Origin: Methylobacterium mesophilicum SR1.6/6
GTDB lineage: Bacteria; Pseudomonadota; Alphaproteobacteria; Rhizobiales; Beijerinckiaceae
Assembly (NCBI RefSeq): GCF_000364445.2
Contig: NZ_CP043538.1
Location: 3,231,612-3,295,611, forward strand
Length of the DNA stretch: 64,000 nucleotides
Direction of reading: 5' to 3'
The notes under the pieces were generated by a model. The model did not search any database. It saw only the letters and a program-made list of their open reading frames with translations, and was not told where the DNA came from. The position numbers were made by a program, and so were the translations under genes. Below, piece by piece: positions 24,864 to 49,287 of the stretch (its first letter is position 1; each line of letters begins with the position of its first letter).

Positions 24864-24909
24864 CGTATGAGATTTTTCAAAACGCTGATCGGCTGCCGGG
24901 TCGCCGGTC

Positions 24910-24925: not shown

Positions 24926-24970
24926 CCGCATGGCCGGAACGGTCTGGTTCTCCGCTCCGGTGGATGTTCC

Positions 24971-28440: not shown

Positions 28441-30246
28441 TCACGCCGCCGCACAGCCGGTCACGTAGCGGCGCCAGCCGCCGAACCGCGTGATATCGGC
28501 CGCACCCGCGATACCGGCCGCCTCCACCAGGAAGCCCTTCGGCGTGGTCCCGTCGTTGAGCCGTACGGTACCGATGCTGAGCGGGTCCGGTATTCCGGCC
28601 ACGAAAGTCCCGAAGGCGGACGGCGGCAACGCCCAGACCTCCGTCTCGATCCCGCTTCCTTCACCGGCGGCCACCCGCAGCAGGCCGGGACGATGCGGCG
28701 GCCCGCCGGGCAGGGCGTAGAGGCGGTAATCCGGCCGCGTCACCCCCGCGCGGAGGTACCGGGCGCCGCATGCGACCAGCTCGCCGTTCAGGGGCAGGCC
28801 CGACAGATGCGCTCCCACGACCGCCAGCTCGATCTCGCCGGGCCTCGCCGAAGCCGGCCCCGATTTCGCGGTCGGGACCGGTGCCGCACTGGCGCCGATC
28901 CGGCCGGCCGAGGCCGCGTGCAGGCGCGCGCCCAGAGCGGCGAGCAACCCGTCGCACCCGCGCGGCGCCAGCAGGGTGACGCCGGAGGGAAAGCTGTCGG
29001 TCCTGGAGCGTCCCGGGACTGCGAGGGCGCACCAATCGAGCAGGTTGACGAAGTTGGTGTAGGTCCCGAGTTCGCTGTTCGGCCCGATCGGGTCGGCGGC
29101 GACGGACGCACAGGTCCGCGGGCGCGGATAGGTCGGCACGGCGAGGACGTCGATGCGATCCCAGATCGCGTCCGCGTGCCGGCGCAGCTCCGCCAGCCTG
29201 TAGAGGCCCGCGAAGGCGTCCGCGGCGCTGTAGCGCTCGGCCGCGGCGATGACCGCCCGCGTCGTCGGGTGCAGGATCCCGGGCCGTGTCTCCATGACCG
29301 GCCGGACCGCCGCGTAGCGCTCGGCCACCCACGGACCGTCATAGAGCAGGGCCGCCACGGCGAACATGGGGTCCAGGTCGACCGGCACCCCCGCGCCCGT
29401 GATCGCTTCGAGATCCGCGGCCGCCGCCGCGAAGGCCGCCTCCGAGAGGCCGTCGCCGCCAAACCGCCGGCTCGCCGCATCCGGAAGCCCCAGACGCAGA
29501 CCCGGCGGCAGGCCGGCGGGCGCGGGCGGCACGGGCAGCGCCCGTGACCAGGGATCGGTATTGTCCGGACCCAGCATGACCCGGAAGGCCGCGTCGGCGT
29601 CGGCGACGGTGCCGGCGAAGACCGAGAGCGTGTCGAGGGTCCGGCAGGCCGGCAGCATGCCGCGGCTGGAGACCGCCCCGAGGGACGGCTTCAGGCCGAC
29701 GATGTTGTTCAGCGCCGCCGGCACACGGCCCGAGCCCGCGGTGTCGGTCCCGAGGGCGAAGGACACGATCCCGTGCGCCACCGCCACGGCGGAGCCGCTG
29801 CTGGAGCCCCCGGGGACGAAGGCCGGATCGATCGCGTTGCGCGGGGCCGGGTAGGGCGTGCGCAGACCGACGAGCCCGGTGGCGAACTGGTCGAGATTGG
29901 TCTTGCCGATCAGGATCGCTCCGGCCGCCAGGAGGCGCGCCACGGCGGGTGCGGTCTCGGTAGGGCTATAGGCGAAGTCTGGGCAGGCGGCGGTGTTCGG
30001 CAGCCCGGCCACGTCGATGTTGTCCTTGACGGCAAAGGGCACGCCCCAGAGCGGCATCGACACGGGGTCGAAGGGCGGCAGCGCGGCCGCCGCGGCCTGC
30101 GCGTCGGCCTCCGGCACCAGCGCGAGGAAGATGCCGGGATCGTCGACCTCGGCGATCCGGCGATAGGCCGCGGCTACGACGGCGCGCGGGTCGAGGCCGT
30201 CGGCATAGGCCGCGTGCAGAAGCGGGATCGTCGGGAAGGGCGGCAC
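28441..30246 (-). CDS. atzF: Allophanate hydrolase (AtzF type)
   Basis: 601 aa, two domains. Residues 1-450 are an amidase-signature domain with the catalytic Ser-cisSer-Lys triad: Lys74 in FAVKDN, GGSSSGS at 146-152 and the nucleophile near Ser172 in GTDTAGSGR. The C-terminal 120 residues (starting VVGAHLSGLPLNGEL) form the second domain of AtzF-type enzymes, which decarboxylates the N-carboxycarbamate intermediate. It converts allophanate to CO2 and ammonia. No urea carboxylase is adjacent; allophanate would come from a ureide, biuret or similar compound processed by neighbouring enzymes. It is last in a minus-strand operon with a deacetylase and an NMT1-type importer. Confidence 0.92.
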   Translation of the reverse strand: MPPFPTIPLLHAAYADGLDPRAVVAAAYRRIAEVDDPGIFLALVPEADAQAAAAALPPFDPVSMPLWGVPFAVKDNIDVAGLPNTAACPDFAYSPTETAPAVARLLAAGAILIGKTNLDQFATGLVGLRTPYPAPRNAIDPAFVPGGSSSGSAVAVAHGIVSFALGTDTAGSGRVPAALNNIVGLKPSLGAVSSRGMLPACRTLDTLSVFAGTVADADAAFRVMLGPDNTDPWSRALPVPPAPAGLPPGLRLGLPDAASRRFGGDGLSEAAFAAAAADLEAITGAGVPVDLDPMFAVAALLYDGPWVAERYAAVRPVMETRPGILHPTTRAVIAAAERYSAADAFAGLYRLAELRRHADAIWDRIDVLAVPTYPRPRTCASVAADPIGPNSELGTYTNFVNLLDWCALAVPGRSRTDSFPSGVTLLAPRGCDGLLAALGARLHAASAGRIGASAAPVPTAKSGPASARPGEIELAVVGAHLSGLPLNGELVACGARYLRAGVTRPDYRLYALPGGPPHRPGLLRVAAGEGSGIETEVWALPPSAFGTFVAGIPDPLSIGTVRLNDGTTPKGFLVEAAGIAGAADITRFGGWRRYVTGCAAA

Positions 30247-30267
30247 GGCGGCTCCTCGGGTCGCGGC

Positions 30268-31182
30268 TCAGGATGCGTCGCCGGTGGCGCGGTACCAGTC
30301 GAGGATCTCTGTCCCCTGCAAGAAGACCGCGTCGGTGCGCGTTAGCATCGCGTCGAGCAACCGTTCCAGCAGGCCGATCCGGTGCGGGACGCCGGTGATG
30401 TACGGGTGGATCGCGAAACCCATGACCTTGGCGCCGCCGAGCGGGCCGGGACTCGCAGCCTCGAGAGCGAGCCGGTCGAGGTTGGCGAGCGCCCGGTCCA
30501 CGAACTCATCGGCCCGGTGGTGCTGGATGGCCAGCAGCGGGATGTCGTTCAGCTCGACCGAGTAGGGGAGGGCGAAGAGCGGCCCGGTGCGCGTCGCGAC
30601 GCGGCAGGGGCGGTCGTCGACCACGAAGTCGCCGACATATTCGAGGCCGGCCGCGTGCAGGTGGTCGGGCGTGTCGAGGGTCTCGGTGAGACCCGGCCCC
30701 AGCCAGCCGCGCGGCGGGCGCCCTGTGATCTCGGTGATCGCCGCGATGGTGCGGGCGATCATCTCCGGCTGGTCGTCGATCCGGTGGGTCGGCACCTGGT
30801 GGAAGCCGTGGGCCATGAACTCCCAGCCGGCCGCGTGGGCGGCCTCGGCGATGCGCGGATAGGCTCGGCAGACCGAGCCGTTGATCGACAGGGTCGGGCG
30901 GATGCCGCGGCTGGTGAAGGCCTCGAGGAAGCGCCAGAAGCCGACCCGCATACCGTACTCGTGCCACGCCCAGTTCGGGATGTCGGGCAGCAGGCTCGCG
31001 GCGGTCGGCGGCACCAGGATCTGGCGCGGCATGGGGTGGTCGATCAGCCAGTGCTCGACATTGACCACCGGCCAGATCGCGACGTGCTTGCCATCGGGCA
31101 GGGTCAGCCGCGGCCGGTCGATGGCGGCGGTGTAAGCGAGGCGGTTCTCAGGCCGGCGGGGATCGTCGGGGGCCGTGTCCAT
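30268..31182 (-). CDS. Polysaccharide deacetylase-family hydrolase, PuuE/allantoinase-like
   Basis: 304 aa from the ATG at 31182, which overlaps the stop of the ATPase gene. The NodB-like fold is recognised by WPVVNVEHW at the start, TLSINGSVC, GWEFMAHGFHQVPTH (metal-binding histidines) and GFAIHPYITGVPHRI at the end. This pattern matches the metal-independent allantoinase PuuE and relatives that open cyclic ureides, rather than chitin deacetylases; there is no signal peptide, so it is cytoplasmic. With allophanate hydrolase directly downstream and an importer upstream, it probably opens or deacylates an imported ureide. The substrate is inferred only. Confidence 0.8.
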   Translation of the reverse strand: MDTAPDDPRRPENRLAYTAAIDRPRLTLPDGKHVAIWPVVNVEHWLIDHPMPRQILVPPTAASLLPDIPNWAWHEYGMRVGFWRFLEAFTSRGIRPTLSINGSVCRAYPRIAEAAHAAGWEFMAHGFHQVPTHRIDDQPEMIARTIAAITEITGRPPRGWLGPGLTETLDTPDHLHAAGLEYVGDFVVDDRPCRVATRTGPLFALPYSVELNDIPLLAIQHHRADEFVDRALANLDRLALEAASPGPLGGAKVMGFAIHPYITGVPHRIGLLERLLDAMLTRTDAVFLQGTEILDWYRATGDAS

Positions 31183-31964
31183 CAGGCGGCGGCCCGCGGG
31201 GCGTGGTGGCTGTGGAGCTGGGCTGTCAGCATCCGCCGCAGGTCGTTGAAGGCGGGGCTCGACACGTCGCGCCGCCGCGGCAGCTCGACCGGATGGATCG
31301 CCTCGATCCGGCCGGGACCCGGCGACATCATCACGATGCGGTCGGCCAGAAAGATCGCCTCCTCGATGGCGTGGGTGACGAACAGGATCGTCAGCCCGGT
31401 GCGCGACCACAGGTCGAGCAGCTCGTCCTGCAGGCGCTCGCGGGTCATCGCGTCGAGCGCCCCGAAGGGCTCGTCCATCAGGACCACCTCGGCCTCGTTG
31501 GCGAGTACCCGGGCGATGGCGACGCGCTGCTTCATTCCGCCCGAGAGCTGGTGCGGATAGGCGTCGGCGAAGGCCTGGAGGCCGACGAGGGCGATGTAGC
31601 GCTCGGCGGTGTCGCGCACCTCGGCGGCGGAGCGGCCCCGCGCCTTCGGGCCGAAGCCGATATTGTCCCGCACGGTGAGCCACGGGAACAGGCCGTAATC
31701 CTGGAAGACCATGCCGCGGCTCGGCCCCGGGCCGGCGATGGGCTTGCCCCACATCAGGGCCTCCCCGGCGCTCGGCGCCTCGAAGCCGGCGGCGACCCGC
31801 AGCAGCGTCGACTTCCCGCAGCCCGAGGCGCCGAGCAGGCAGACGAACTCGCCCCGCGACACGGTGAGGTTCGCCTCGCGCAGGGCCTCCGTGCGGCGCC
31901 CACCCGCCGTGTAGGTCTTCGAGACTGCGCGCATGTCGAGGATCGGGATCGTGGGATCAGCCAT
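31182..31964 (-). CDS. ABC transporter ATP-binding protein (SsuB/TauB/NrtD family)
   Basis: 260 aa with Walker A LLGASGCGKSTLLR, Q-loop VFQDYGLFPW, signature LSGGMKQRVAIARVLAN, Walker B VVLMDEPFGALD and the H-loop FVTHAIEEAIFLADR. It is the ATPase of the importer encoded with the permease and NMT1-like receptor just upstream, and overlaps the permease by 8 bp. Family members take up sulfonates, nitrate, taurine, pyrimidines or ureides; the context with allophanate hydrolase favours a nitrogen compound. Confidence 0.93.
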   Translation of the reverse strand: MADPTIPILDMRAVSKTYTAGGRRTEALREANLTVSRGEFVCLLGASGCGKSTLLRVAAGFEAPSAGEALMWGKPIAGPGPSRGMVFQDYGLFPWLTVRDNIGFGPKARGRSAAEVRDTAERYIALVGLQAFADAYPHQLSGGMKQRVAIARVLANEAEVVLMDEPFGALDAMTRERLQDELLDLWSRTGLTILFVTHAIEEAIFLADRIVMMSPGPGRIEAIHPVELPRRRDVSSPAFNDLRRMLTAQLHSHHAPRAAA

Positions 31965-32814
31965 GGGTGGGGCTCCAGGCGAGCAGGCGGCGGCCGAGCT
32001 GCATGACCAGCCAGTCGGACACGAAGCCCGCGACCCCGATCACCGCCATGCCGCAGATCACGATCTCGGTGCGCGAGAGCTGGCGCGCCTCCATGATGAT
32101 CGCGCCGAGGCCGGTCTGGACGCCGGTCATCTCGCCGACGACGATCACCACCCAGGCGAAGCCGAGGCCGAGCCGCAGGCCCGTGAAGATCGACGGCAGC
32201 GCCGCCGGCAGCACCACCCGGCCGAACTGGGAAGGCCCGGTGCAGCCCAGCATCGCGGCCGCCTCGAACAGGCGCGGCTCCACCGAGCGGACCCCGAACA
32301 CCGTGTTGACCAGGATCGGGTAGAACGCCCCGAGGAACACGAGGAAGAAGGCCGAGCGCGGCCCGAGGCCGAACAGGATCATGGCGAGCGGCAGCCACGC
32401 CGTAACCGGGACCGGCCGCAGCACCTGCAGCACCGGATCGAGGAGGGCCCGGATCAGCGGGACGCGGCCGATCAGCAGGCCGAGCGGCAGGGCCGCGGCG
32501 GCCGCGAGCGCGAAGCCGCCGTAGACGCGTCCCAGCGAGGCCGCGAGGTGGGTCCACAAGGTGCCGCTGAACGCGTCGTCGTTGACGCCGCCGACCGCGA
32601 GATCCTGCAGCTCGGCCCAGACGTCGGCGGGGGGCGGGATCAGGCTGTAGGGCCGGCCCGCGGTGGTCACCTGCCAGACTGCCAGGAGCAGAGCCGGCAC
32701 CACGCCGGCGAGCGCCAGCCGGCGCAGATGGACGAGCCCGGACCCGGCCCGGCCGGCCCCGCGGGTCGGGGCCGGCGTCACCGGCAGGGCGCCGGCCTCG
32801 ACCCCGGTGGTCAC
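31957..32814 (-). CDS. ABC transporter permease (SsuC/TauC family)
   Basis: 285 aa with about six membrane segments and the EAA-type loop (ARLFEAAAMLGCTGPSQFGR region; here seen as EPRLFEAAAMLGCTGP). The start GTG at 32814 overlaps the receptor stop. The N-terminal 30 residues are proline-rich and cytosolic. It forms the membrane channel of the importer with the ATPase and NMT1-like receptor genes on either side. Confidence 0.92.
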   Translation of the reverse strand: MTTGVEAGALPVTPAPTRGAGRAGSGLVHLRRLALAGVVPALLLAVWQVTTAGRPYSLIPPPADVWAELQDLAVGGVNDDAFSGTLWTHLAASLGRVYGGFALAAAAALPLGLLIGRVPLIRALLDPVLQVLRPVPVTAWLPLAMILFGLGPRSAFFLVFLGAFYPILVNTVFGVRSVEPRLFEAAAMLGCTGPSQFGRVVLPAALPSIFTGLRLGLGFAWVVIVVGEMTGVQTGLGAIIMEARQLSRTEIVICGMAVIGVAGFVSDWLVMQLGRRLLAWSPTHG

Positions 32815-33761
32815 GCCCGCCCCATCGCGTCGACGAAGCGAGTGTCGATGAAGCCCGCCTCGGGAAGGCGCTTGATCTGTTTGAGCGCCAGCATGTGCTG
32901 CGCGTAGGCGCCGGCCTGACGGACCTCGTCCGGCCCGAGGCGCCAGGTCAGCTCGACGTTCGGGGCCGAGAGTTCGAGCGCCTGGCGCTTCTGGCCGAGC
33001 TTGGCCACGGCCATGGCGATCATCGCGTTGCGGTCGCCGGCCGCGAAGTCGGTCGCCTTGCGGTGGATCTCCAGCATGGTCCGGACGAGGTCCGGCCGCT
33101 CGGCCAGCGTGTCGCGATGGGCGCCGAACACCATGTTCAGCGCGCCCATCTCGGTGCCGTACGGGTACTCGACGAGCTGCCCGACCCCCGAGGCGAGGCT
33201 CACGCCGGGGCCCGGCTCGGCGCCGACATAGGCATCGACGTCACCGCGGGCCAGCGCGATGTGCATCTCCGAGAAGGAGACCCGCACGGGGGTGATGTCC
33301 TTCACGGAGAGGCCCTCCATGCGCATCCGCTCCAGGACGAAGACCTCCTGGGTGCTGCCGGGCCAGATCGCGACGCGCTTCCCGCGGAGATCCTTGATGG
33401 CGCGGATGTCGGAATCCTTCTTGGCGATCACCGCCATCCCGCGGTTGCAGGTGGAGGCGATGACGACGATCGGCTCGCCGGCCGCGGCCCCCAGCGTCGC
33501 CGCCGCGATTCCGAAGGTGCCGAAATCGACCGACTTGGTGACGACGGCGTTCTTGCACTCGGTGGGACTCTCGAACGGCACCACCTCCACCGTCACGCCC
33601 GCGGGGGTGAACCGCTCGTAGAAGCTCGGCGCGATCGAGTGGATCAGCTTGAGCGAGCCCATCCGGATGGTAACCGGAGTGCTCTGGGCGCGTGCCCCGG
33701 ACAACGGCCCGGCGACGAGGCCGGCCCCGAAACCGGCCAGGAGGGTACGGCGGCGGATCAT
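32811..33761 (-). CDS. ABC transporter substrate-binding protein (NMT1/SsuA-like)
   Basis: 316 aa from the ATG at 33761 with a twin-arginine-like leader (MIRRRTLLAGFGAGLVAG) ending near ARA-QS. The mature sequence has the NMT1/THI5-like pattern: IRMGSLKLIHSIAP, VDFGTFGIAAATLGAAAGEP, LRGKRVAIWPGSTQEVFV and DVDAYVGAEPGPG. It is the periplasmic receptor that decides the ligand of the three-gene importer. The gene is first in the operon and divergent from a LysR regulator (77 bp between starts). The ligand is unknown; ureide, pyrimidine or amide are the contextual guesses. Confidence 0.9.
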   Translation of the reverse strand: MIRRRTLLAGFGAGLVAGPLSGARAQSTPVTIRMGSLKLIHSIAPSFYERFTPAGVTVEVVPFESPTECKNAVVTKSVDFGTFGIAAATLGAAAGEPIVVIASTCNRGMAVIAKKDSDIRAIKDLRGKRVAIWPGSTQEVFVLERMRMEGLSVKDITPVRVSFSEMHIALARGDVDAYVGAEPGPGVSLASGVGQLVEYPYGTEMGALNMVFGAHRDTLAERPDLVRTMLEIHRKATDFAAGDRNAMIAMAVAKLGQKRQALELSAPNVELTWRLGPDEVRQAGAYAQHMLALKQIKRLPEAGFIDTRFVDAMGRA

Positions 33762-33838
33762 CGCATGGCTCCTGCAGAGTCCCGATGTCCACGACGCTAG
33801 GGGCGCACGATGTTGCAAGGAAGTGCTATTATCTGAGC

Positions 33839-34774
33839 ATGGTGTTGCGTTTCGGGAAACGGACCGGAGCCGATCGTTTGAAGCACCTGCGCAGTGTCAC
33901 GTACATCGCCGAGGTCGCCCGTGCCGGCTCGATCCGGCGCGCTGCGGAGCGGCTGAACCTGACGCCGTCAGCCCTGACCCGCCAGATCCAGGATCTCGAG
34001 CACGAGCTCGGCACGCCGATCTTCGAGCGCCTGCCGCAGGGCATGCGGCTCAACGCGGCCGGCGAACTCTTCGTCCGTCATATCCGCGACCAGGCTGCGG
34101 ACCTCGACCGGGTTCGTTCGCAGATCGCCGACCTCTCCGGGGTCAGGCGGGGCCACGTGGCGCTGGCCTGCAGCCAGGCCTTCATCACGCAGGTCGTGCC
34201 GGAGGAGGTGGAGGCCTATCGCAGCCGATTTCCCCAGGTCGGCTTCACCGTGCAGGTCCGCGATCACGCGCAGGCGGTCACCGCCCTCGCGGCCTTCGAG
34301 GCGGACCTCGCCCTGATCCTGCAGCCGCCGCCCTCGGCGGAGCTGCACCCGCTCTATTCCGGCCACCAGACACTCTGCGCACTGATGCGCCGGGGCCATG
34401 CCCTGGCGGCGGAGAGCGGCCCGGTGCGACTGCGCGACTGCCTCGCCCATGCCCTGGCCCTGCCGGACCGCTCGCTCGCGATCCGCCACCACATCGAGCA
34501 CACGCTCGCCCGCCGCGGCGTCGAACTGCGGCCGGTGGTCGAATCGGGGTCCCTGGAGTTCCTGCGCAATCTCACCCTGCGGGAGGATGTGGTCAGCCTG
34601 CAGATCCCGAGCGGCATCCCGCAGGATCCACGCCTGCACAGCCGGCCCATCGACACCCGCGACCTGACGCCGATGACCCTGGTCCTGGCACAGCTGCGCG
34701 GTCGATCCCTCTCCGTGGCGGCGGCGAAGTTTGCCGATCAGCTCGCCGTCCGGCTCAACCGTGACGATCCCTGA
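33839..34774 (+). CDS. LysR-family transcriptional regulator
   Basis: 311 aa from the ATG at 33839. The N-terminal winged HTH (about residues 15-75) includes AGSIRRAAERLNLTPSALTRQIQDLE and LGTPIFERLPQGMRLN. The effector domain follows (HVALACSQAFITQVVPEEV). It is divergent from the NMT1-importer/deacetylase/allophanate operon with 77 bp between starts, the usual LysR arrangement, so it likely controls that operon. The intergenic space contains GCAC-N14-GTGC (33805-33826), a possible half-site pair. Confidence 0.93.
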   Translation: MVLRFGKRTGADRLKHLRSVTYIAEVARAGSIRRAAERLNLTPSALTRQIQDLEHELGTPIFERLPQGMRLNAAGELFVRHIRDQAADLDRVRSQIADLSGVRRGHVALACSQAFITQVVPEEVEAYRSRFPQVGFTVQVRDHAQAVTALAAFEADLALILQPPPSAELHPLYSGHQTLCALMRRGHALAAESGPVRLRDCLAHALALPDRSLAIRHHIEHTLARRGVELRPVVESGSLEFLRNLTLREDVVSLQIPSGIPQDPRLHSRPIDTRDLTPMTLVLAQLRGRSLSVAAAKFADQLAVRLNRDDP

Positions 34775-34836
34775 CGCGTCGTGCGTGTCGATACCGCGCC
34801 CAGCTCCTCAGAGTCGGAGACGCGTCTCGGAGTTGA

Positions 34837-35179
34837 TCAGGACGTTTGCTTCCGGACGCTGTCTCCCAGCCGGAGCCATAGCCCATCGGATACGGTCTCG
34901 ACCGCGAACAGGCGAAGGGCACGAAACGACCAGCCCGGCGAGACGGAACCGTCCCGAAGGTCGAAGGAGGCGAGATGCCTGGGGCAGAGCAGCCGTCCAC
35001 CCGCGCACCGGCCGAGCGCCAGGTCCGCCCCCTCGTGCGGACAGGCCCGCTCGGCGGCGACGATCCGCGCGCCATCGCGCACGAGCAGCCAGTGATGCCC
35101 GCCCGCGGTGACCGGCATCAGGTCCCGGTCGCCGAGCAGGTCGGCCGGGCCGAGGCGCAGGCGCGTCGGCCGACCGATC

Positions 35180-35187
<8 letters not shown>
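34837..35187 (-). CDS. Rieske [2Fe-2S] ferredoxin-like protein
   Basis: 116 aa from a GTG at 35187 that overlaps the livF stop by 8 bp; the frame is open further upstream but that part lies inside livF. Both Rieske cluster motifs are present: CPHEG (Cys49, His51) and CPRHLASF (Cys68, His71). It is small and has no signal peptide or membrane segment, so it is a soluble electron carrier or an electron-transfer partner of an oxygenase. It is the last gene of the LivKHMGF/molybdenum-hydroxylase operon and may transfer electrons in that pathway; no oxygenase subunit is encoded nearby. Confidence 0.85.
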
Positions 35188-35876
<689 letters not shown>

Positions 35877-35884
<8 letters not shown>

Positions 35885-36692
35885 GGGCCGCCTCCCGAAC
35901 CGCCGCGGCGGCCTGCCGGGCGGCGCTGCCCTGGCCGAGATAGGCCTCGATCACCGCCGGGTCGCTGCGGATCCGGTCCGGCGGCCCCTCGGCGATCAGG
36001 CGGCCGTAATTGAGCACGACGATGCGGTCGGAGACCTCCATCACCATCGGCATGTCGTGCTCGACGAGGAGGATGGTGACGCCGCGCTCCCGGATCTGCC
36101 GGATCAGCCGCACGAAGACCCGCGTCTCGGAGGCGTTCATTCCCGAGACCGGCTCGTCGAGGAGCAGCATGGCGGGCTCGGTGGCCAGCGCCAGCGCCAC
36201 GCCGACGAGGCGCTGCTCCCCGTAGGCGAGGGCGCCGGCCTTCTCCTGCGCCCGTCCGGCGAGCCCGACCCAGTCGAGGAGCGCCGCGGCCCGGACGCGC
36301 AGCTGCCTCTCGCCGGCCCCCGCGCGGCCGAGGAGCGCGTCCAGAATGGGCGCGCGGCCCGCCGCGGCGCCCATCTGGTGCAGGCCGATCATCACGTTGT
36401 CGAACACCGTGTCGTCCGGGAAGACGCTGGTGCGCTGGAAGGTGCGGGCGAGGCCGAGCCGCGTGATCGCGTGCGGCGGCAGGCCCTTCAGGGACGTGCC
36501 GCGGAAGCGGACCGCGCCCTGGCTGGGCTTGAGGAAGCCCGTCATCACGTTGAAGGCCGTCGTCTTGCCGGCCCCGTTCGGGCCGATCAGGCTGACGATC
36601 TCGCCGGCCCGGACGTCGAAATGCAGGTCGGCGATGGCGACCAGGCCCCCGAAGCGGACCCCAACATGCTCGACGGAGAGGATCGCGCTCAT
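35877..36692 (-). CDS. livG: Branched-chain amino acid-type ABC transporter ATPase LivG
   Basis: 271 aa from the ATG at 36692, in ATGA overlap with livM. It carries Walker A GPNGAGKTTAFNVMTG, the modified signature LAYGEQRLVGVALALA that is normal for LivG, Walker B MLLLDEPVSGMN and LVEHDMPMVMEVSDRI. The C-terminal alanine-rich tail (AARQAAAAVREAAHA) extends slightly beyond the family norm. It pairs with LivF in the importer. Confidence 0.93.
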
Positions 36693-37723: not shown

Positions 37724-38592
37724 CCGATGCGCTCCGCCTTCGCGAACAGCCCGGTCGGCTTGTAGAGCAGGACCGCGATGATGATCAGGAACCCCATCGC
37801 GTCGCGGTAGCCGGAGGAGACGTAGCCGGCCCCCAGCTCCTCGGCGAGCGCCAGGATGAAGCCGCCGATCGCCGCGCCGGTGACGTTGCCGAGGCCGCCC
37901 AGGATGACGATGGCGAAGGCCTTCAGTTCGGCGAGGCCGCCCATCTGCGGGAACACCACGTAGACGGGCCCGAGCAGGGCGCCGGCGGCCGCGGCCAGCG
38001 ACGAGCCGAGCGCGAAGGTGGCAGTGTAGATCCGCCGGACGTCGACGCCCATCAGCGCCGCCGTGTCGGCATCCTGGAAGGCGGCGCGCATGGCGAGCCC
38101 GAGCTTGGTCCGGTTGATCAGCGCGTAGGTCAGGGCGATCAGGGCCAGCGCCGCGCCGAGCACGAACAGCCGCAGCCACGAGACCGAGACCGGGCCGATC
38201 TGCAGCGGCGCCTCGGGGAAGGGCGCGGGGATCGCCTTGGCGACGCCGCCGAAGGTCCAGAGCGTGCCCGATTGCAGGATGATGCCGGCACCGATCATCA
38301 CCAGCATGGTGGTGTCGATGTCCGAGCCCCGGAACGGGCGCAGCAGCACCAGCTCGATCGCGGCCCCGAGCAGGAGCCCCCCGACGATCGCCACCGGCAG
38401 CGCCAGGAAGAAGTTCAGTCCCAGGGCCGAGACCGCGAGGTACATGACATAGGCGCCGACCGTGTATAGCGCGCCGTGGGTGAAGTTCACGACGTTCATG
38501 ATCCCGAAGATCAGCGTCAGGCCGATCCCTAAGAGCGCGTAGGTGCCGCCGAGGATGAGCGCGTTGACGAGGTGCTGGATCAGTTCGTTCAC
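37720..38592 (-). CDS. livH: Branched-chain amino acid-type ABC transporter permease LivH
   Basis: 290 aa from a GTG at 38592. It contains GTYALLGIGLTLIFGIMNVVN at its start, cited here in part, NFTHGALYTVGAYV, LAMRAAFQDADTAALMGVDV and GAIGGF-type ending helices (GNVTGAAIGGFILALAEELG). It forms the other half of the channel with LivM. Two strong hairpins separate it from livK, probably lowering its expression relative to the receptor. Confidence 0.93.
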   Translation of the reverse strand: MNELIQHLVNALILGGTYALLGIGLTLIFGIMNVVNFTHGALYTVGAYVMYLAVSALGLNFFLALPVAIVGGLLLGAAIELVLLRPFRGSDIDTTMLVMIGAGIILQSGTLWTFGGVAKAIPAPFPEAPLQIGPVSVSWLRLFVLGAALALIALTYALINRTKLGLAMRAAFQDADTAALMGVDVRRIYTATFALGSSLAAAAGALLGPVYVVFPQMGGLAELKAFAIVILGGLGNVTGAAIGGFILALAEELGAGYVSSGYRDAMGFLIIIAVLLYKPTGLFAKAERIG

Positions 38593-38614
38593 GGGCGGCC
38601 TCCGAGAGTGCGCC

Positions 38615-38667
38615 CCGGCCAGGGGGCCGGTGGACGGGCGAGGGGACCGGCGTCGGGCCGCCGGTCC
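38615..38667 (-). promoter_or_regulatory. Two GC-rich hairpins between livK and livH (attenuator-like)
   Basis: The first, directly after the livK stop, is a perfect 9-bp stem (38644-38652 GGACCGGCG with 38659-38667 CGCCGGTCC, 6-nt loop). The second is CCGGCC/GGCCGG at 38615-38630 with a 4-nt loop. Neither has a T-run. Such elements commonly stabilise the receptor mRNA and reduce transcription into permease genes; that role here is inference. Confidence 0.6.
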
Positions 38668-38675
38668 GGAGGCGC

Positions 38676-39824
38676 TCACAGCGTCGGCACGATCACCTTC
38701 CCGTCCTTGATCTCGATGAGGTAGACGTCGGGCTTGCTCTGCCCGCTCTCCTTCCCGGCGGGGCCGGCCTTGGCGAAGCGGATCGGCCCGTTGAGCCCGA
38801 CGAAGTCGACCGACCAGAACGCCTTGGTGATCGCGGCCGGATCGGCCGAGCCCGCCTTCTCGATGGCATGGGCGATCGCGCGGATGCCGTCGTACCCGCG
38901 AAAACTCTCGGTGACGCCGGCGAACTCGAAGCCGCGCTTCTTCCACGCGGCGATGAAGGCCTCGGTGGCCTTCGGGTCCGGCGTCTTGTCGGGCGACCAG
39001 GGCAGGAAGGTCGTCAGGTGCATCGTGCCGTCGGCGGCCGCGCCGGCCTGGGCGATGATCTGGTCCGGGTTCTGGGATCCGCCGGTGGTGATGACCCGCT
39101 TCTTCAGGCCGAGCGCCGCCATCTGCTTGAACAGCAGCACGAGCTGATCGACCGAGCTCGTGATCATGATCGTGTCGGAATCCGACGCCTTCAGCTTGGC
39201 GAGCTGGGCGCTCATGTCCTGCGCGCCCTGGTCCATCGTCTCGACGAGGCCGTCCGTCACGCCCTTGTCCTTGAGCATCTTGCCGAAATCGGTCGCGGCG
39301 CCGCGGCCGAAATCGTTGTTGAGGACCAGGAAGTCGACCTTCTTCAGCCCGAGGCGAGACACCATCGGCGCGAAGGTCTCGGCCTCCAGCGACGAGGGCG
39401 GCGAGATCCGGAACACGTAGGGGTTGCCGGAGGTCGTGATCTTGCCGGACGAGGAGGTCTCGACCAGCATCGGCGTCTCGTAATCCGTGAGCTTGGGCAT
39501 CACGGCGAGCGTCAGACTGGAGCCCCAGGCACCCATCATCACCGGGGTCTTGTCGCTGGTGATCAGCTTCTCGGCGACCGCGGCGGCCTCGGTCGGGTTG
39601 CTCTTGTTGTCCTCGATCACGAGTTCGAGCGTCTTTCCGAGGACGCCACCCTTGGCGTTGATCTCGTCGGCCGCGATCTTGGCGCCGTTCACCACGTAGG
39701 TGCCCGAGGCCGCGAACGGCCCGGTCAGCGGCTCGTTGACGCCGATGCGGATCGCCTCCGCCCGGGCGCCCGTCGTCGTCAGCGCCAGCAGGATCGCGGT
39801 CGTGAGGGTGAACCTGCTGGGCAT
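38676..39824 (-). CDS. livK: ABC transporter substrate-binding protein, LivK/Leu-Ile-Val-binding type
   Basis: 382 aa from the ATG at 39824 with a Sec leader (MPSRFTLTTAILLALTTTGARA). The mature part begins EAIRIGVNEPLTGPFAASGTYV and has the type I periplasmic binding fold: NPTEAAAVAEKLI, MMGAWGSSLTLAVMPKL, FLVLNNDFGRGAA and FRGYDGIRAIAHAIEKAG. It is the ligand-determining receptor of the importer and lies 34 bp downstream of the molybdenum-hydroxylase 2Fe-2S subunit, so uptake and hydroxylation are coordinated. Related receptors bind amides, aromatic acids or urea. Confidence 0.93.
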   Translation of the reverse strand: MPSRFTLTTAILLALTTTGARAEAIRIGVNEPLTGPFAASGTYVVNGAKIAADEINAKGGVLGKTLELVIEDNKSNPTEAAAVAEKLITSDKTPVMMGAWGSSLTLAVMPKLTDYETPMLVETSSSGKITTSGNPYVFRISPPSSLEAETFAPMVSRLGLKKVDFLVLNNDFGRGAATDFGKMLKDKGVTDGLVETMDQGAQDMSAQLAKLKASDSDTIMITSSVDQLVLLFKQMAALGLKKRVITTGGSQNPDQIIAQAGAAADGTMHLTTFLPWSPDKTPDPKATEAFIAAWKKRGFEFAGVTESFRGYDGIRAIAHAIEKAGSADPAAITKAFWSVDFVGLNGPIRFAKAGPAGKESGQSKPDVYLIEIKDGKVIVPTL

Positions 39825-39858
39825 TCGCGTGTCTCCGGTGCGTTGAGGCGGGATGGGA

Positions 39859-41054
<1,196 letters not shown>

Positions 41055-41058
<4 letters not shown>

Positions 41059-41927
41059 GCGGCCTCCGGAAGGGTGTCGGATCGGGGATCGGGCGCAGCC
41101 GCCGCGGCCACCGCGCGGCTCAGGACGGTGACGTGGACGTGCCGCTCGACCGCGTCGGCCATGCCGGCATCCCGCAGCGCGAGGTCGGCGGCCCCGGCGT
41201 CGAAGCGCGCGGCGAAGTCGGCGCCGATGCGGCCGCCGAAGAGCGGGCGGGCATCGGCCAGGAGCACGGGCGGCCCCTCGACCGCGCCGATCACGGCCCG
41301 GCCGCGGCCCGCCCCGGGTTCGAGGCGCACGGCCCCGATGGCGTGGGCGAACTCGCCGATCTTCGCGCAGTGCTTGACGTAGCCCCAGGCCGCGCCCGCC
41401 GGCAGCGCCGGGACGCGCACCGCGACCAGAATCTCGTCCGCGCCGAGCGCCACTTCGAGGGCGCTGGTCACGAAACGCTCCACCGGCAGGGTGCGGCGGC
41501 CGCTCCGCCCGGCGATCTCGACCTCGGCGCCGAGGGCGGTCAGAGCGCTCACCCAGTCGGCGGCCGGGTCGGCGTGGACGAGGCTGCCGCCGATCGTGCC
41601 GCGGTTGCGCACCGGCCGGTAGGCGATGGCGGCCGCGACCCGCCGCAGCGCGCCGCCGGTGAGGTCCGGGACGCGCCCGTCCTCGACGTCGGCGTGGGTC
41701 ACGCAGGCCCCGAGGACGAGCGTGTCGCCCTCGACCCGCGCGTCCCGGAGTTCGGGGATGCCAGTGATGTCGAGGATCAGGGTGGGCTCGACGAGGCGCA
41801 GGTTCAGCATCGGCCCGAAGGACTGGCCCCCCGCGATCAGCTTCACGCCCGCGGGGGCTTCGGCGAGGCGCGCCAGCAGCGCGGGCAGGCTGTCGGGGCG
41901 CTCCCAGGCGAAGGCGGCGGGCTTCAT
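41055..41927 (-). CDS. Molybdenum hydroxylase FAD-binding subunit (CoxM type)
   Basis: 290 aa from the ATG at 41927. FAD-binding motifs of the CoxM/XdhB family are visible: LIAGGQSFGPMLNLRL (the AGGQS pyrophosphate loop), ITGIPEL, GACVTHADVE and the TIGGSLVHADPAADW loop. It passes electrons from the 2Fe-2S clusters to the acceptor. Coupled by 4-bp overlaps to the large subunit upstream and the 2Fe-2S subunit downstream; the gene order L-M-S is that of many CoxLMS-like hydroxylases. Confidence 0.93.
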
Positions 41928-44224
41928 GCGGCCTCCCGCGCGGTCTCGGCGGGCGCGCGGGTGGCGAGCACCGCCTCCACGATCCGTCGGGGGGTGAGGG
42001 GCGAATGCAGCATCTCGACGCCGAGCGGCGCCAGCGCATCGTTGATGGCGTTGGCGAGCGCCGCCGGGGGCGCGATGGCGCCGCCCTCGCCGATGCCCTT
42101 CTGGCCGAAGCGCGTGTAGGGCGAGGGCGTCTCCATGTGGTCGATGCGCGCCATCGGCACGTCGGCGGCGCCGGGCAGGAGGTAGTCGGCCAACGTCGAG
42201 GCCAGCGGCTGGCCGCGGGCGTCGAAGCGCATCTCCTCGAACAGGGCCGTGCCGATCCCCTGGGCGAGGCCGCCGTAGATCTGGCCGTCGACCACGAGGG
42301 GGTTCACCAGCGTGCCGCCATCCTCGACGATGACGTAGTCGAGGATCTCGACCGCCCCGAGATCGGGATCGACCGCCACCACGGCCGCGTGCGCCGCGTA
42401 CGAGAAGGTGCCAGAATCGCGCACCGGCTTGTAGCCGGCGGTGACTTCGAGGCCGCCCGGATCGGTGTCGGGGGCGAGGTCCTGCGGGCGCCGGTACCAG
42501 GTGCGGGCGATCGCCTCGAGCGGGACGTCGCCGGAGGGGCCGACGACGTGGCCGCCCTCGAACCGGCATTCCTCGGGCCTCGCCTGGAGCAGGTGGGCGC
42601 CGATCCGGACGGCGCGGTCGCGCAACGCCTCGCAGGCCGCCGCCACGGCGCCGCCCGCCATCACCATGACGCGGGAGCCCCAGGAGCCCGTGGAGTAGGG
42701 GGTCATGGCAGTGTCGCCGTGGACGAGGCGGGTGCGCGCCACCGGAACGCCGAGGATCTCGTGGGCGACCTGAGCCAGCGTCGTCTCCAGGCCCTGGCCG
42801 TGGGAATGGGCGCCGATCCGCAGCTCCAGGCCGCCATCCGGGGTCAGGCGGGCGCTCGCCTGCTCGTGGCCCGGCACCATCGGGATGCCCCAGCCGGAAT
42901 AGACCGAGGTGCCGTGCGCGGCCTGCTCGCAGTAGATCGCGAGGCCGAGGCCGATCCGGCGCCCGTCCGGCTCGCCCTGCCGCTGGCGGGCGCGGATTGC
43001 CTCCACGTCGATGGCCTTCAGCGCCCGGGCGAGCGCCTCCGGGTAGTCGCCGCTGTCGAAGTGCTTCTTCGTGATGTTCTCGAACGGCATCTGGTCGGGC
43101 CGTACGAGGTTCTTCTCGCGCACGGTCTCGGGCGCGACCCCCGCCGCGCGGGCGACGGCGTCGAGCACCAGTTCCAGGGCGAAGCAGACGCCGGTGCGGG
43201 CGACGCCCCGGTAGGGCAGGATCGGGCACTTGTTGGTTGCCACCGACCACGTCCGGCAGCGATAGGCCGGGAAATCGTAGGGGCCGGGCAGGATGCTGGC
43301 GACCTGCGCGGCCTCCAGGCAGGCCGAGAACGGGTAGGCCGAGTAGGCGCCGGAATCGACGGTGGCCTCGCAATCGATGCCGCGCAGGGTCCCGTCCCGC
43401 TCCGCGTAGGCGGTGATCCGGTAATGGTGCTCGCGACAATTGGCGTTGGCGGTCAGGTGCTCGCGCCGGTCCTCCAGCCAGCGGACCGGGTGGCCGCAGC
43501 GGAGCGCGAGCCACGCCAGCGCCACGTCCTCGGCGAGCAGGATCGCCTTGTAGCCGAAGCCGCCGCCGACATCCGGCGAGACGATGCGGATGCGGCCCTG
43601 CTCGATCCCGAGGCATTCCGAGAGGCCGTTGCGCACGATGTGCGGCATCTGGCTCGCGGTGTGGACGACGAGCTGGTCGAGGCGGTGATCGAGGCTCACC
43701 AGGGTGCCGCGGCCCTCGATCGGCGCCATGCACTGGCGGCCCGTCGAGATGGTGCGGCTGACCTTGATCGGCGCGTCGAGGGCACTCTCGATGCCGACAT
43801 CGACCAGGGTCTCCAGGAAGACGTTGTCGCCCCAGTGCTCGTGGACCAGGGCGGAGCCCGGCGCGCGCGCGGCCAGCATGTCGTGGATTGCGGGCAGCTC
43901 CTCCAGGTCGAGGACGACGGCCGCGGCGATGTCCTCGGCCTCCGCGCGGGTCGGGGCGACGCACATCGCCACCAATTCGCCGACCTGCCGGACCTTGCCG
44001 GTGGCGAGCACCGGCTGCTCGGAGACCTTGAAGCCGGGCAGTCCCGAGACCGCCCGGATTGGCAGCACGCCGTTGAGGTCGGCCGCGGTGAAGACGCGGT
44101 CGCGGTAGGCCTCCGGCACGTGGATGCCGCGGATCCGGGCATGGGCCAGCGGGCTGCGCACGAAGGCGACGTCCTGCATCCCCGGCAGCCGGAGGTCGCC
44201 GACATACTGGCCGCGCCCGCGCAT
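41924..44224 (-). CDS. Molybdenum hydroxylase large (molybdopterin) subunit, CoxL/XdhA-like, probable N-terminal frameshift
   Basis: 766 aa from the first in-frame ATG at 44224. The xanthine-dehydrogenase/CoxL fold is clear: GRGQYVGDL, SPDVGGGFGYKAILLAEDV (Moco-binding GGGFG), PYRGVARTGVCFALE, GAHSHGQGLETTLAQVAHE and catalytic Glu near 713 in GQKGIGEGGAIAPP. It lacks the CO-dehydrogenase CSFR loop, so it hydroxylates an organic, probably N-heterocyclic or aldehyde substrate. In the 18 codons upstream the frame reads GAPLPRKEDDRLM, the expected family N-terminus, but without a start. The ATG at 44279, in ATGA overlap with the upstream hydrolase, is in another frame; removing one G from the G5 run at 44257-44261 would join the two. 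Confidence 0.92.
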   Translation of the reverse strand: MRGRGQYVGDLRLPGMQDVAFVRSPLAHARIRGIHVPEAYRDRVFTAADLNGVLPIRAVSGLPGFKVSEQPVLATGKVRQVGELVAMCVAPTRAEAEDIAAAVVLDLEELPAIHDMLAARAPGSALVHEHWGDNVFLETLVDVGIESALDAPIKVSRTISTGRQCMAPIEGRGTLVSLDHRLDQLVVHTASQMPHIVRNGLSECLGIEQGRIRIVSPDVGGGFGYKAILLAEDVALAWLALRCGHPVRWLEDRREHLTANANCREHHYRITAYAERDGTLRGIDCEATVDSGAYSAYPFSACLEAAQVASILPGPYDFPAYRCRTWSVATNKCPILPYRGVARTGVCFALELVLDAVARAAGVAPETVREKNLVRPDQMPFENITKKHFDSGDYPEALARALKAIDVEAIRARQRQGEPDGRRIGLGLAIYCEQAAHGTSVYSGWGIPMVPGHEQASARLTPDGGLELRIGAHSHGQGLETTLAQVAHEILGVPVARTRLVHGDTAMTPYSTGSWGSRVMVMAGGAVAAACEALRDRAVRIGAHLLQARPEECRFEGGHVVGPSGDVPLEAIARTWYRRPQDLAPDTDPGGLEVTAGYKPVRDSGTFSYAAHAAVVAVDPDLGAVEILDYVIVEDGGTLVNPLVVDGQIYGGLAQGIGTALFEEMRFDARGQPLASTLADYLLPGAADVPMARIDHMETPSPYTRFGQKGIGEGGAIAPPAALANAINDALAPLGVEMLHSPLTPRRIVEAVLATRAPAETAREAA

Positions 44225-44275
44225 CAGGCGGTCGTCCTCCTTGCGGGGCAGGGGAGCCCCCGACGCCCTCGCGGC

Positions 44276-45154
44276 TCATCGGGCGCCTCCGAGAACATCC
44301 TGCGCGGCGCGGACCAGAAGGCCGTCGGGCCGGCGGAATTCGTCGAGGATCGAGAAGTGGTCGGCGCCCGGCACCGGCAGCAGGATGCCCGGCGCGTGGG
44401 CGGCGCTGCGCAGGGCGTGGAGGTTGCGCGCGTCGCGGACGAGGGCGGGCAGCTCCCGGCTGCCGTAGGCGACCGTCATGGGCTTGGGCACGACGGCCAG
44501 CCGCGGGGGCGACAGGGTCTCGATCTCCCCGTCGGTCAGGCCGAGCTTCTCGTTCAGGTAGGTCTCGCGGATCGGCGCGAGGTCGTAGACGCCGGAGATC
44601 GCCAAACCCGCGGACACGGCGGGATGCCCGAGATGGAGCGCGGCGAGCTGCGCCCCCGCGGACCAGCCGGCGAGGACGATCGGGCCGCCGATCCCGCGCG
44701 CCGTCCCGTGCGCGGCGAGCCAGTCGAGGGCGGCCCCGATCTCGGCGACGATCCCGGTAAGGCTCGCCTCGGGTGCCAGGGTGTAGCCCGGCATCGCCAC
44801 CGACCAGCCGGCGGCGTTCAGCCCTTCCGCGAAGCAGGCGAAATCGGCCCGGGCGTTGCGCTGCCAGTAGCCGCCGTGGACGAAGACGAGGCAGGGCGCC
44901 CCCGTCTCCGCCGCCGGGTAGAGGTCGAAGCCGGTGCGCGCGCCGGCGGCGTAGGGGATGTCGAGCCCGGCCGGGTGCGCCGCGCGGTAGGCCGCGGAGG
45001 CCGCGTTGCGGGCCGCGACCTGCGCGGCGCTGTCGGGCACGCCCGCGTTGTTGTCGTAGCAGGCGCCCCGGGCCGCGAAGTCCAGGCTGTCCCAGCGGCG
45101 GCGCGGGTCCGGCGGGGTCGGGTCGTCGAGGACGAAGGCGGGCACCGGCGCCAC
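44276..45154 (-). CDS. Alpha/beta hydrolase, kynurenine-formamidase-like
   Basis: 292 aa from a GTG at 45154, one base after the amidohydrolase stop. The oxyanion-hole motif HGGYW (93-97) and the nucleophile elbow GWSAGAQ (Ser165) are those of arylformamidase/BNA7-like hydrolases. The acid and His are probably in the C-terminal part (LPVPGADHFSILDEF). It could hydrolyse an N-formyl or ester/amide bond generated when a heterocycle is opened. Its stop overlaps the ATG at 44279 that appears to be the original start of the molybdenum hydroxylase large subunit. Confidence 0.85.
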   Translation of the reverse strand: MAPVPAFVLDDPTPPDPRRRWDSLDFAARGACYDNNAGVPDSAAQVAARNAASAAYRAAHPAGLDIPYAAGARTGFDLYPAAETGAPCLVFVHGGYWQRNARADFACFAEGLNAAGWSVAMPGYTLAPEASLTGIVAEIGAALDWLAAHGTARGIGGPIVLAGWSAGAQLAALHLGHPAVSAGLAISGVYDLAPIRETYLNEKLGLTDGEIETLSPPRLAVVPKPMTVAYGSRELPALVRDARNLHALRSAAHAPGILLPVPGADHFSILDEFRRPDGLLVRAAQDVLGGAR

Positions 45155-45155
45155 C

Positions 45156-46439
45156 TCAGGCCGCGATCGCCTGGGGCAGGATCGGCGAGTCGGCCTCGAA
45201 GCGCTTCCCTGCCCGCAGGCAGAAGGCCGGTCGCAGCAGGCGGTCGGCGATCACCCGCGTGTCCTCGTTGTCGCGCAGCAGGAAGCGGCCGCGATCGTCG
45301 TGCAGCACCGAGACATCGGCCGTGTAGCCGATCTTGAGGGCGCCGATCCGGTCGCCCATGCGCAGCATCTCGGCCGGGTGCGACGTCACCATCGGCACCA
45401 CCTCCTCCAGCGGGATGCCCAGCGCCATCATCGAGCTCATCGCCTGGGTGAGGCTGAACCGGGCCTGCCCGAGGAACGGGTGGTTCTCGTCGTCGTGGTG
45501 CTCGTCCGGGGTGCCGGCGGGCTTCTTCACCTCGGGGACCTCGGTGTTGTAGCCGTGCATGTCGGCGCCGAGCGTGTAGGGGATCACGCCCGCCGGCAGG
45601 GACGCGCGGGCCACGCGGTAGGAGAAGTGGCTCCCGTGGCCGACATCGACCTTGAGCCCGGCCTCCATCGCCCGGCGGATGATGTGGTGGACCTCGCCCT
45701 GCTCGTTGATGAAGCCGCCCGGGTGGCGGGTGAAGGGGTGGGCCAGCACGTCGCCCGGCCGCAGCAGGGGGATCACCCGCTCGACGATGGTGTCGGCATC
45801 CTCGCCGTTGGCGCCCGATTCCGGCAGGCCCCAGAGCTGACCGAAATGCACGTAGAGCGGCAGGTCGGCGCGCCGGCTGATCTCGGCCGCCATCTCCATG
45901 ACCTTGATGCCCCAGCGGGCGAAGCCGCCGATCTCGGCGTGGCCCTTGATGCCACGTACGAGGTCGCGGTTCTCGGTGGCGGACTTCACCGTCGCGTCGA
46001 TGTCGACGCCGTCCGGGCTGTAGAGGTTCGGATAGAAATGCCCTTCCAAGCCGCCGACGAGATAAGCCGACAGAAAGGCGAGCACCTGCGTCTCGGAGCG
46101 CTCGGCAATGAAATGGCGAAATCCCGGAAGGGTCATGCAGGAGGGACCGCCCTGGTCCACCACCGTGGTGACGCCGGAGCGCACGCCGACCATGTCGGGA
46201 TTCAGGCCGAAGCGGCCGGTGACGTACTGGTAGACGTGGGCGTGCGTGTCGATCATGCCGGGCAGAACGAGCTTGCCCGAGACGTCGACCACCTCGATTG
46301 CGGCCGACGGCAGGATGGTCTCCTCCACGGCCGCGATGCGCCCGTCGCGCACCGCCACGTCGCGGATGCCATCCACGCCGGAGGCGGGGCAGATCACCCG
46401 CCCGCCCCGCAAAACCAGATCGTAGCGGTGTTTGTCCAT
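45156..46439 (-). CDS. Amidohydrolase-superfamily cyclic amidase/deacetylase-like enzyme
   Basis: 427 aa from the ATG at 46439 (GAGGTCGAG upstream). Metallo-dependent hydrolase features: GKLVLPGMIDTHAHVYQY (His66 and His68), GIKGHAEIGGFARWG, PLYVHFGQLWGLPE, DVLAHPFTRHPGGF and the late Asp in TLGADMHGYN. The composite beta sandwich is formed by the N- and C-terminal strands. This is the group annotated as amidohydrolase/deacetylase or dihydroorotase-like. It is first in the long minus-strand operon and divergent from a MarR gene with a palindrome between them. It likely opens a cyclic amide or removes an acyl group; the substrate is not known. Confidence 0.88.
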   Translation of the reverse strand: MDKHRYDLVLRGGRVICPASGVDGIRDVAVRDGRIAAVEETILPSAAIEVVDVSGKLVLPGMIDTHAHVYQYVTGRFGLNPDMVGVRSGVTTVVDQGGPSCMTLPGFRHFIAERSETQVLAFLSAYLVGGLEGHFYPNLYSPDGVDIDATVKSATENRDLVRGIKGHAEIGGFARWGIKVMEMAAEISRRADLPLYVHFGQLWGLPESGANGEDADTIVERVIPLLRPGDVLAHPFTRHPGGFINEQGEVHHIIRRAMEAGLKVDVGHGSHFSYRVARASLPAGVIPYTLGADMHGYNTEVPEVKKPAGTPDEHHDDENHPFLGQARFSLTQAMSSMMALGIPLEEVVPMVTSHPAEMLRMGDRIGALKIGYTADVSVLHDDRGRFLLRDNEDTRVIADRLLRPAFCLRAGKRFEADSPILPQAIAA

Positions 46440-46487
46440 CTCGACCTCGTGATCCTGACCGACCGACGCCGGCCCCGTTCTTGCCGG

Positions 46488-46507
46488 ATGCGAAGCACGC
46501 TTCGTAT
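46488..46507. promoter_or_regulatory. Palindromic operator between amidohydrolase and marR
   Basis: ATGCGAAGC-AC-GCTTCGTAT: 9-bp arms with one mismatch, flanked by CCGG on both sides. It is centred about 60 bp from each divergent start. Its size and placement fit a MarR dimer site controlling both transcripts. Confidence 0.72.
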
Positions 46508-46559
46508 TCCGGCGACGCATAGGGCGTGCCAAGACCGGAACTGATCTGGGGAGCGATAG

Positions 46560-48323: not shown

Positions 48324-48503
48324 TCACATCTTCTCTTCGATGCTGGCTCCCACGCGCGGTCATTTACCGGGAAGCTGGCGAGGAAGCCTGCCACCATGGC
48401 GGCCTGCACTGCGGATGGAAATTCCCCCACCAGACGGCCCGAGCAGCAGGGATGCGACGGAAAGGTCATGGAGCCAGCCCGAGGTGGCGAAGGCGGCGCT
48501 CAA
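48324..48503 (-). pseudogene. Internally deleted DUF4396-like membrane protein remnant
   Basis: A TTG at 48503 overlaps the stop of the glutaredoxin-MauE gene and starts LSAAFATSGWLHDLSVASLLLG, resembling the N-terminus of DUF4396 proteins. Two other frames then give AAMVAGFLASFPVN and finally GASIEEKM before a TGA at 48324, resembling the C-terminal helix and tail of the same family. About 60 codons remain of a normal 150 or more, in three frames. The identification rests on remembered family sequence and is moderate. Confidence 0.45.
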
Positions 48504-49246: not shown

Positions 49247-49287
49247 GAGCGGCTCCTTTCCGATGTGGGGCGGGGGGCGCGCCGGCG

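Follow-up and report, generated by a model that had tools for sequence, protein, structure and literature searches.

The window analysed here is a 64,000-nucleotide stretch of Methylobacterium mesophilicum SR1.6/6 (positions 3,231,612-3,295,611 of a 6.56-Mb single-contig genome), and it carries two adjoining sets of putative catabolic genes, which we term module A (28441-34774) and module B (34837-47078). Gene calling and family searches placed 16 genes on the minus strand in two runs with a plus-strand lysR between them, where an earlier, sequence-only reading had described one minus-strand block of 14; every gene type which that reading had claimed was found close to where it had been placed. 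The minus-strand genes comprise atzF, a puuE-like gene, three genes of an NMT1-type ATP-binding cassette (ABC) importer, a Rieske gene, five liv genes, three genes for the subunits of a molybdenum (Mo) hydroxylase, an alpha/beta hydrolase and an amidohydrolase. Spacing within each run is operon-like, as adjacent genes either share a few bases or sit no more than about 90 bases apart. In line with the sequence-only reading, neither urea carboxylase nor barbiturase nor cyanuric acid hydrolase was found among these 16 genes when they were scanned.

Module A is made up of atzF (28441..30246, minus strand), the puuE-like gene (30268..31182, minus), the importer ATPase of nitrate/sulfonate/taurine type (abcA; 31182..31964, minus) and permease (abcP; 31957..32814, minus), both assigned by family searches, an NMT1/SsuA-type substrate-binding protein (nmt1; 32811..33761, minus; family searches and PDB matches), and a divergent LysR regulator (33839..34774, plus; family searches), whose frame is open from 33692 and whose start is that of the sequence-only reading. 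AtzF exceeds both curated cut-offs (770.4 bits vs 511.05, and 826.2 vs 487), carries both expected Pfam domains (Amidase and AH_C), and matches PDB 4gyr with 529 bits, its K74, S148, S172, Y302 and R310 aligning to identical residues. We take the first three to be the Ser-cisSer-Lys site, and Y302 and R310 to be the substrate-binding Tyr and Arg. By cut-offs, domains and site residues, the protein is assigned as an allophanate hydrolase, and it is the sole match over cut-off in the window genome. The PuuE-like hydrolase belongs to the PuuE-type subclass of the polysaccharide-deacetylase (NodB) fold, and is closer in fold to PuuE than to carbohydrate deacetylases, but it differs from PuuE allantoinase (PDB 3cl6; 24% identity) and falls far under the curated PuuE cut-off (80.7 bits vs 424.6). 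PDB matches of the NMT1-type protein, and of LivK in module B, were limited to generic LivK, nitrate, sulfonate and similar binding proteins, and indicated no ligand.

In module B, a Rieske [2Fe-2S] protein (34837..35187, minus; 43.9 bits, cut-off 20.3) is followed on the same strand by five liv genes assigned by family searches: the ATPases LivF (35180..35884) and LivG (35877..36692), the permeases LivM (36689..37723) and LivH (37720..38592), and the substrate-binding LivK (38676..39824; also PDB matches). Beyond these, again on the minus strand, lie the Fe-S subunit of the Mo hydroxylase (coxSG; 39859..41058), its flavin adenine dinucleotide (FAD) subunit (coxM; 41055..41927; FAD_binding_5, 149.9 bits), its large, molybdopterin subunit (coxL; 41924..44224; 459 bits to quinoline 2-oxidoreductase, PDB 1t3q), the alpha/beta hydrolase (abh; 44276..45154; family and PDB searches) and the amidohydrolase (amdh; 45156..46439). 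A divergent MarR regulator (46560..47078, plus; family searches) completes the module.

Molybdopterin, FAD and two-[2Fe-2S] parts of a xanthine oxidase-family enzyme are thus all present. The Fe-S subunit (Fer2, Fer2_2) is in addition fused at its C-terminus to a CoxG domain (38 bits, cut-off 22.2; alignment with ten homologues), a feature that the sequence-only reading had not described. Two familiar members of the family were considered and rejected: the curated cut-offs were missed both for aerobic carbon monoxide (CO) dehydrogenase (501.8 vs 950, and 432.8 vs 991.15) and for xanthine dehydrogenase (352.7 vs 780, and 327.9 vs 916). The large-subunit loop reads PYRGVAR and lacks the Cys-loop motif that we take to be the mark of form I CO dehydrogenase. 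The amidohydrolase passes the cut-off of the PRK09237 amidohydrolase/deacetylase family (445.1 bits vs 371), presumably equivalent to COG3964, and its H66, H68, K165, H198, H234 and D293, which we take to be the full set of expected metal ligands, are invariant across 12 aligned rows, two of them near-identical. As a dihydroorotase, hydantoinase or allantoinase AllB it was discounted, every listed curated model scoring far under its cut-off. For the alpha/beta hydrolase the former label of formamidase-like is weak: its best PDB match is the lipase-type 9n8r (187 bits) against 50 bits to kynurenine formamidase 4e11; it reached 171.6 bits with the HaHSL model (cut-off 320). No oxygenase subunit of a Rieske dioxygenase system was found among the 16 genes scanned.

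The two modules were followed separately through the window genome and 60 relatives, 61 genomes in all. The amidohydrolase served as the marker of B and the PuuE-like gene as that of A; stretches of up to 20 kb surrounding the matches were extracted, and the window genes were mapped onto 30 of them. In relatives, module A is ordered lysR / nmt1-abcP-abcA-puuE-atzF, and module B marR / amdh-abh-coxL-coxM-coxSG-livKHMGF-rieske. Among 37 Methylobacterium genomes, A occurs in 10 and B in 15; seven have both, three A only, eight B only and 19 neither. This count leaves out genome G012, whose puuE matches are only 43-52% identical, and includes G007, in which the PuuE-like gene lies in two abutting frames (L060, 9471-10374), possibly through a frameshift or a sequencing error. 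The single block of the sequence-only reading is not conserved as such in relatives: A and B stand side by side in one of the seven genomes with both, that of the window. Elsewhere B lies on a plasmid-sized contig and A on a chromosome-sized one (G002), the two are about 0.92 Mb apart (G010) or far apart on one contig (G035), or they occupy different contigs (G001, G011, G036). Further, in 12 of the 14 other B stretches of the genus the Rieske end and at least 2 kb beyond it are visible, and no module-A gene is found there. Across 297 genomes of the order, 21 carry B and 11 a close A orthologue (at least 63% identity over most of the length), with both in two genomes, each a Methylobacterium; this close count leaves out a partial match in G137 (65% over 195 residues) and all matches below 63%.

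Module A also recurs in other genomes. Six genomes of one genus in another family share the order atzF-nmt1-abcP-abcA-puuE (abcA is not separate in L195), preceded by a GntR-type regulator in the one case tested, and in G118, of the same family, an alpha/beta hydrolase comes after puuE. In G041 a puuE-linked alpha/beta hydrolase and atzF are both present, together with an asparaginase-like gene. More distant puuE relatives adjoin another Mo hydroxylase together with a luciferase-type monooxygenase in two genomes (L205, 4454-10370; L206, 9674-15614), possibly a third kind of N-heterocycle cluster, or adjoin fumarylacetoacetate hydrolase-family genes on Variovorax and Streptomyces plasmids.

Module B is widely distributed. 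A scan of an 84,980-species collection confirmed at least 438 relatives, the best 80 of which were kept; a coxL match adjoins amdh in 77 of these 80 loci, and the block recurs among them in Methylobacterium, Bradyrhizobium, Xanthobacter, Azorhizobium, Hansschlegelia, Methylopila, Aquabacter, Tardiphaga and Rhodopseudomonas. With four plasmid loci and ten further genome loci added, 94 loci were mapped under per-family bit thresholds chosen here. Counts from these are lower bounds, as loci end at contig ends or at the flank length. The gene maps of relatives show only open reading frames (ORFs) that matched one at another locus, with overlapping ORFs thinned, and single genes, like the abcA of L195, can therefore be missing from them. 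At least 89 loci have marR, 87 coxL, 54 abh and 52 the Rieske gene, while two Jiella loci have amdh, abh and the Rieske gene with no coxL in view. Module B is a compact, strongly conserved block of 11 genes in many Hyphomicrobiales associated with soil and plants. Among the open PMC papers listed as matches, no title or abstract describes either module.

Accessory genes accompany some of these loci, comprising at least nine with AllG, six with a phosphoribosyltransferase, three with DUF1989, two each with AtzH/HpxZ, amidase and AtzF, and one with a gamma-glutamyltransferase-like gene. Family models were applied to one or two members per group, the others resting on similarity or record annotation: AllG (124 bits) and the phosphoribosyltransferase (316 bits, cut-off 175) of L183, HpxZ of L068 and L184 (185 and 188 bits, cut-off 135), and DUF1989 of L153 and L148 (204 and 165 bits). 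DUF1989 lies inside the block in L153 only, and several kb upstream on the opposite strand in L143 and L148. AllG is found in nine of the 11 loci whose amidohydrolase is less than 65% identical to that of the window, and in none of the other 83; it is rare elsewhere, with no case in the 61 genomes of relatives. L183 and L184 belong to the window genome's class and to two other families; their AtzF copies are 61% and 52% identical to that of the window, with an Opp-type importer between AtzF and B, and L184 also has an amidase and an AtzH-like gene, with no coxL in view. In an AtzF tree addressing a possible descent from module A copies, the copies beside B relatives make a branch of their own, on long branches. 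In other Methylobacterium, the operon that contains AtzF also has a large ORF and two DUF1989 genes at L237, L238 and L242; at L240 and L243 its companions are an AtzH-like gene and an amidase-like stretch. AtzF is a shared terminal enzyme of several operon types, and its presence alone is therefore no tie between operons. One Azospirillum locus has genes of a dihydroxypyridine dioxygenase, maleamate and maleate route further along.

Given the gene content, domain make-up, conserved metal ligands and separate conservation and occurrence observed here, we favour, at somewhat better than even confidence, the view that A and B are two independently conserved catabolic operons which stand back to back in the window strain. 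Catabolism of an N-heterocycle or ureide, as the sequence-only reading had it, is still the best reading for each half, but not as a single pathway through all genes. In module A, the NMT1/SsuA-type transporter would bring in a small nitrogen compound, the PuuE-type hydrolase would cleave it, probably by opening a cyclic ureide or imide, and AtzF would free ammonia from allophanate, with LysR as the putative controller. In module B, LivKHMGF may take up an N-heterocycle, in which the quinoline-oxidoreductase-like Mo hydroxylase would convert a ring C-H beside nitrogen to a carbonyl; the CoxG domain on its Fe-S subunit may tether the enzyme to the membrane, and electrons could pass to quinone, to the Rieske protein, or to both. 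The resulting lactam, imide or cyclic acylurea would then be opened by the amidohydrolase, and the open-chain amide or acylurea so formed would be split by the alpha/beta hydrolase. MarR presumably controls the module.

The accessory genes AllG, AtzH, DUF1989 and AtzF of divergent B relatives all concern acylureas or acylguanidines, which fits this scheme for B. DUF1989 proteins act in carboxyguanidine deimination, and AtzF cleaves allophanate. AllG is described as part of oxalurate breakdown in PMC12625717, and AtzH, according to PMC6219798, probably makes allophanate from dicarboxyurea. More tentatively, and at a probability well short of even, B may be the core of a pathway family, mainly of Alphaproteobacteria, in which nucleobase-like rings are converted to cyclic acylureas by a membrane-tethered Mo hydroxylase, opened by a PRK09237-family amidohydrolase, and finished by one of several enzymes for acylureas or acylguanidines that can substitute for each other (alpha/beta hydrolase, amidase with AtzH, AllG, DUF1989 or AtzF).

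The sequence-only reading had instead run a single pathway through both halves, in the order uptake, hydroxylation, ring opening, deformylation, ureide cleavage and allophanate hydrolysis, and several observations favour such a tie and weigh against our own view. Beyond the adjacency in the window, the overlap within the genus (7/37) is modest but somewhat greater than expected by chance (one-sided Fisher p = 0.033, kinship ignored), and under a loose definition of A, which admits any PuuE-family match at E <= 1e-80 and so takes in the matches left out of the close count, A is found in 44 of the 297 genomes of the order and both modules in eight (p = 0.006), six of them outside Methylobacterium (p = 0.031). 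AtzF adjoins B in L183 and L184 with an Opp-type transporter, and together with the overlap this makes a functional tie possible. Alpha/beta hydrolases in some A operons are 51-53% identical to the kind in module B, and in three genomes of the genus (G001, G035, G251) an alpha/beta hydrolase follows puuE with no atzF seen, the G001 contig ending about 0.8 kb past that region. Weak PuuE-family matches (25-32%) lie near B in L087 and L124. The 80 best B loci stop at or before the Rieske end, none of them extending 11.6 kb past the amdh start; the count of puuE in 0 of 94 B loci (threshold 150 bits) was for that reason not used as evidence on the adjacency of A. The acylurea scheme for B is itself strained by the presence of the alpha/beta hydrolase in just 54 of the 94 loci, by the lack of any accessory gene in the window's own module, and by the restriction of AllG to loci with divergent amidohydrolases, because of which those relatives may use other substrates. 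Set against a single pathway, each half has its own regulator and importer; the halves lie on different replicons or contigs, or at least about 0.9 Mb apart, in relatives; eight genomes of the genus have B without A and three A without B; and, among the 297 genomes of the order, close A orthologues and B never occur together outside Methylobacterium. The additional loose PuuE matches are more distant, and those mapped sit in other gene neighbourhoods: of the six loose pairs outside the genus, three had their PuuE loci mapped (G136, G206, G259), and these lack the set of NMT1 importer and AtzF. The loose co-occurrence thus speaks either for some tie between the halves or for large catabolic genomes having both, and a weak statistical tie remains. 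Where the seven relatives searched have the outer flanks of the window, these too are found elsewhere, and the neighbourhood therefore looks like a mosaic. Because the halves occur apart, we set the single pathway aside as leading reading and consider it improbable.

For module B alone, the main competitor to a ureide route is degradation of a pyridine- or quinoline-type azaarene, in which the amidohydrolase would act on a lactam or enamide. Quinoline 2-oxidoreductase is the top match of the large subunit, the amidohydrolase is distantly related to enamidase (25 bits), and a 3-hydroxypyridine dehydrogenase of four components that includes a CoxG homologue has been reported, as PMC11962113 mentions. 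The conserved block nonetheless lacks dihydroxypyridine dioxygenase, maleamate amidase and maleate isomerase, and the ureide-type genes of divergent relatives would go unaccounted for; we regard this route as unlikely, if less so than the single pathway. Malonylurea is the one-carbon homologue of oxalurate, which lends some appeal to an oxidative nucleobase route resembling that from uracil via barbiturate to malonylurea. In it the amidohydrolase would stand in for barbiturase, and the alpha/beta hydrolase (in relatives, amidase with AtzH, or AllG) for N-malonylurea hydrolase. The phosphoribosyltransferase and AllG genes noted above (6/94 and 9/94 loci) would suit such a route, as would the action of AtzH and of oxalurate enzymes on acylureas (PMC6219798, PMC12625717). 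RutA, however, is over cut-off in the window genome, and in 18 of the 23 genus genomes searched with the window's included, which weakens uracil as the sole role of B; no uracil transporter or malonate gene occurs in the module, and the substrate of a Mo hydroxylase is not readable from its sequence. This is the least probable of the explanations considered, and we doubt it strongly. As a separate observation, G041 has four tandem RutA homologues on one contig (C34, about 29794-34320), all over the curated cut-off.

Module B has molybdopterin, FAD and Fe-S subunits in common with quinoline 2-oxidoreductase (Qor) and other N-heterocycle Mo hydroxylases; its large subunit aligns with Qor over nearly the whole length and shares the YRGV loop, but its Fe-S subunit is CoxG-fused and its genes are linked to those for a Liv importer and an amidohydrolase. 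HpdA, the 3-hydroxypyridine dehydrogenase of Ensifer adhaerens HP1, is reportedly a Mo hydroxylase with a separate CoxG-like fourth part; the CoxG-like part is thus common to both, though fused in B, and the dihydroxypyridine genes of that route are not in module B. With the cyanuric acid operon of Pseudomonas ADP (AtzD-G-E-H-F), module A shares the terminal AtzF, a divergent LysR and an importer, and two B relatives likewise have AtzH and amidase genes, but A and B both lack AtzD, AtzE and AtzH, and A has the PuuE-like hydrolase instead. The DUF1989-bearing operons of other Methylobacterium (L237, L238, L242) end in an AtzF 51-73% identical to that of module A, which has neither their DUF1989 protein nor a gene of the size of their large ORF, probably a guanidine or urea carboxylase. 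Riboflavin catabolism (PMC12746152) also combines Mo-hydroxylase and Rieske parts, the Rieske proteins there forming a dioxygenase; dehydrogenases, cyclic amidohydrolases and carbamoyltransferases are linked in general terms in PMC4016543. Use of urea and allantoin by Methylobacterium strains is credited to other genes in PMC5017803.

The remainder of the window offers several further observations. A sodium:dicarboxylate symporter gene adjoins a dCache sensor kinase and a sigma-54 response regulator (23332-28191), which suggests a set for the uptake and sensing of C4-dicarboxylates, presumably DctABD-like. On one strand at 48500-54415 lie genes for a MauE/glutaredoxin-domain protein, an AcrB-family pump, a CusB/HlyD-type adaptor and a YtkA-like protein, a probable efflux set; similar DNA occurs elsewhere in the seven relatives searched, with a short part only in G017. 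An integrase-like protein with an Arm DNA-binding domain is encoded at 57571-59232, with no catalytic integrase domain by Pfam at E <= 0.001. At gathering thresholds, transfer RNA (tRNA) alone was found among known RNA elements in the window. Insertion of an island at the tRNA-Gly at 20780 was considered and rejected, as the rest of the window contains no 14-base copy of either this tRNA or its 3' side.

On the reading favoured here, module B is a widespread and as yet uncharacterised variant of N-heterocycle catabolism that starts with a Mo hydroxylase. To read A and B as one pathway would lead experimenters to pursue one substrate where two are probable. If the tentative acylurea pathway family is real, then PRK09237-family amidohydrolases would gain a defined pathway role. 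More broadly, the substrate of B, once named, would assign function to a generically annotated amidohydrolase family, to a CoxG-fused Mo hydroxylase, and to the importer that accompanies them.

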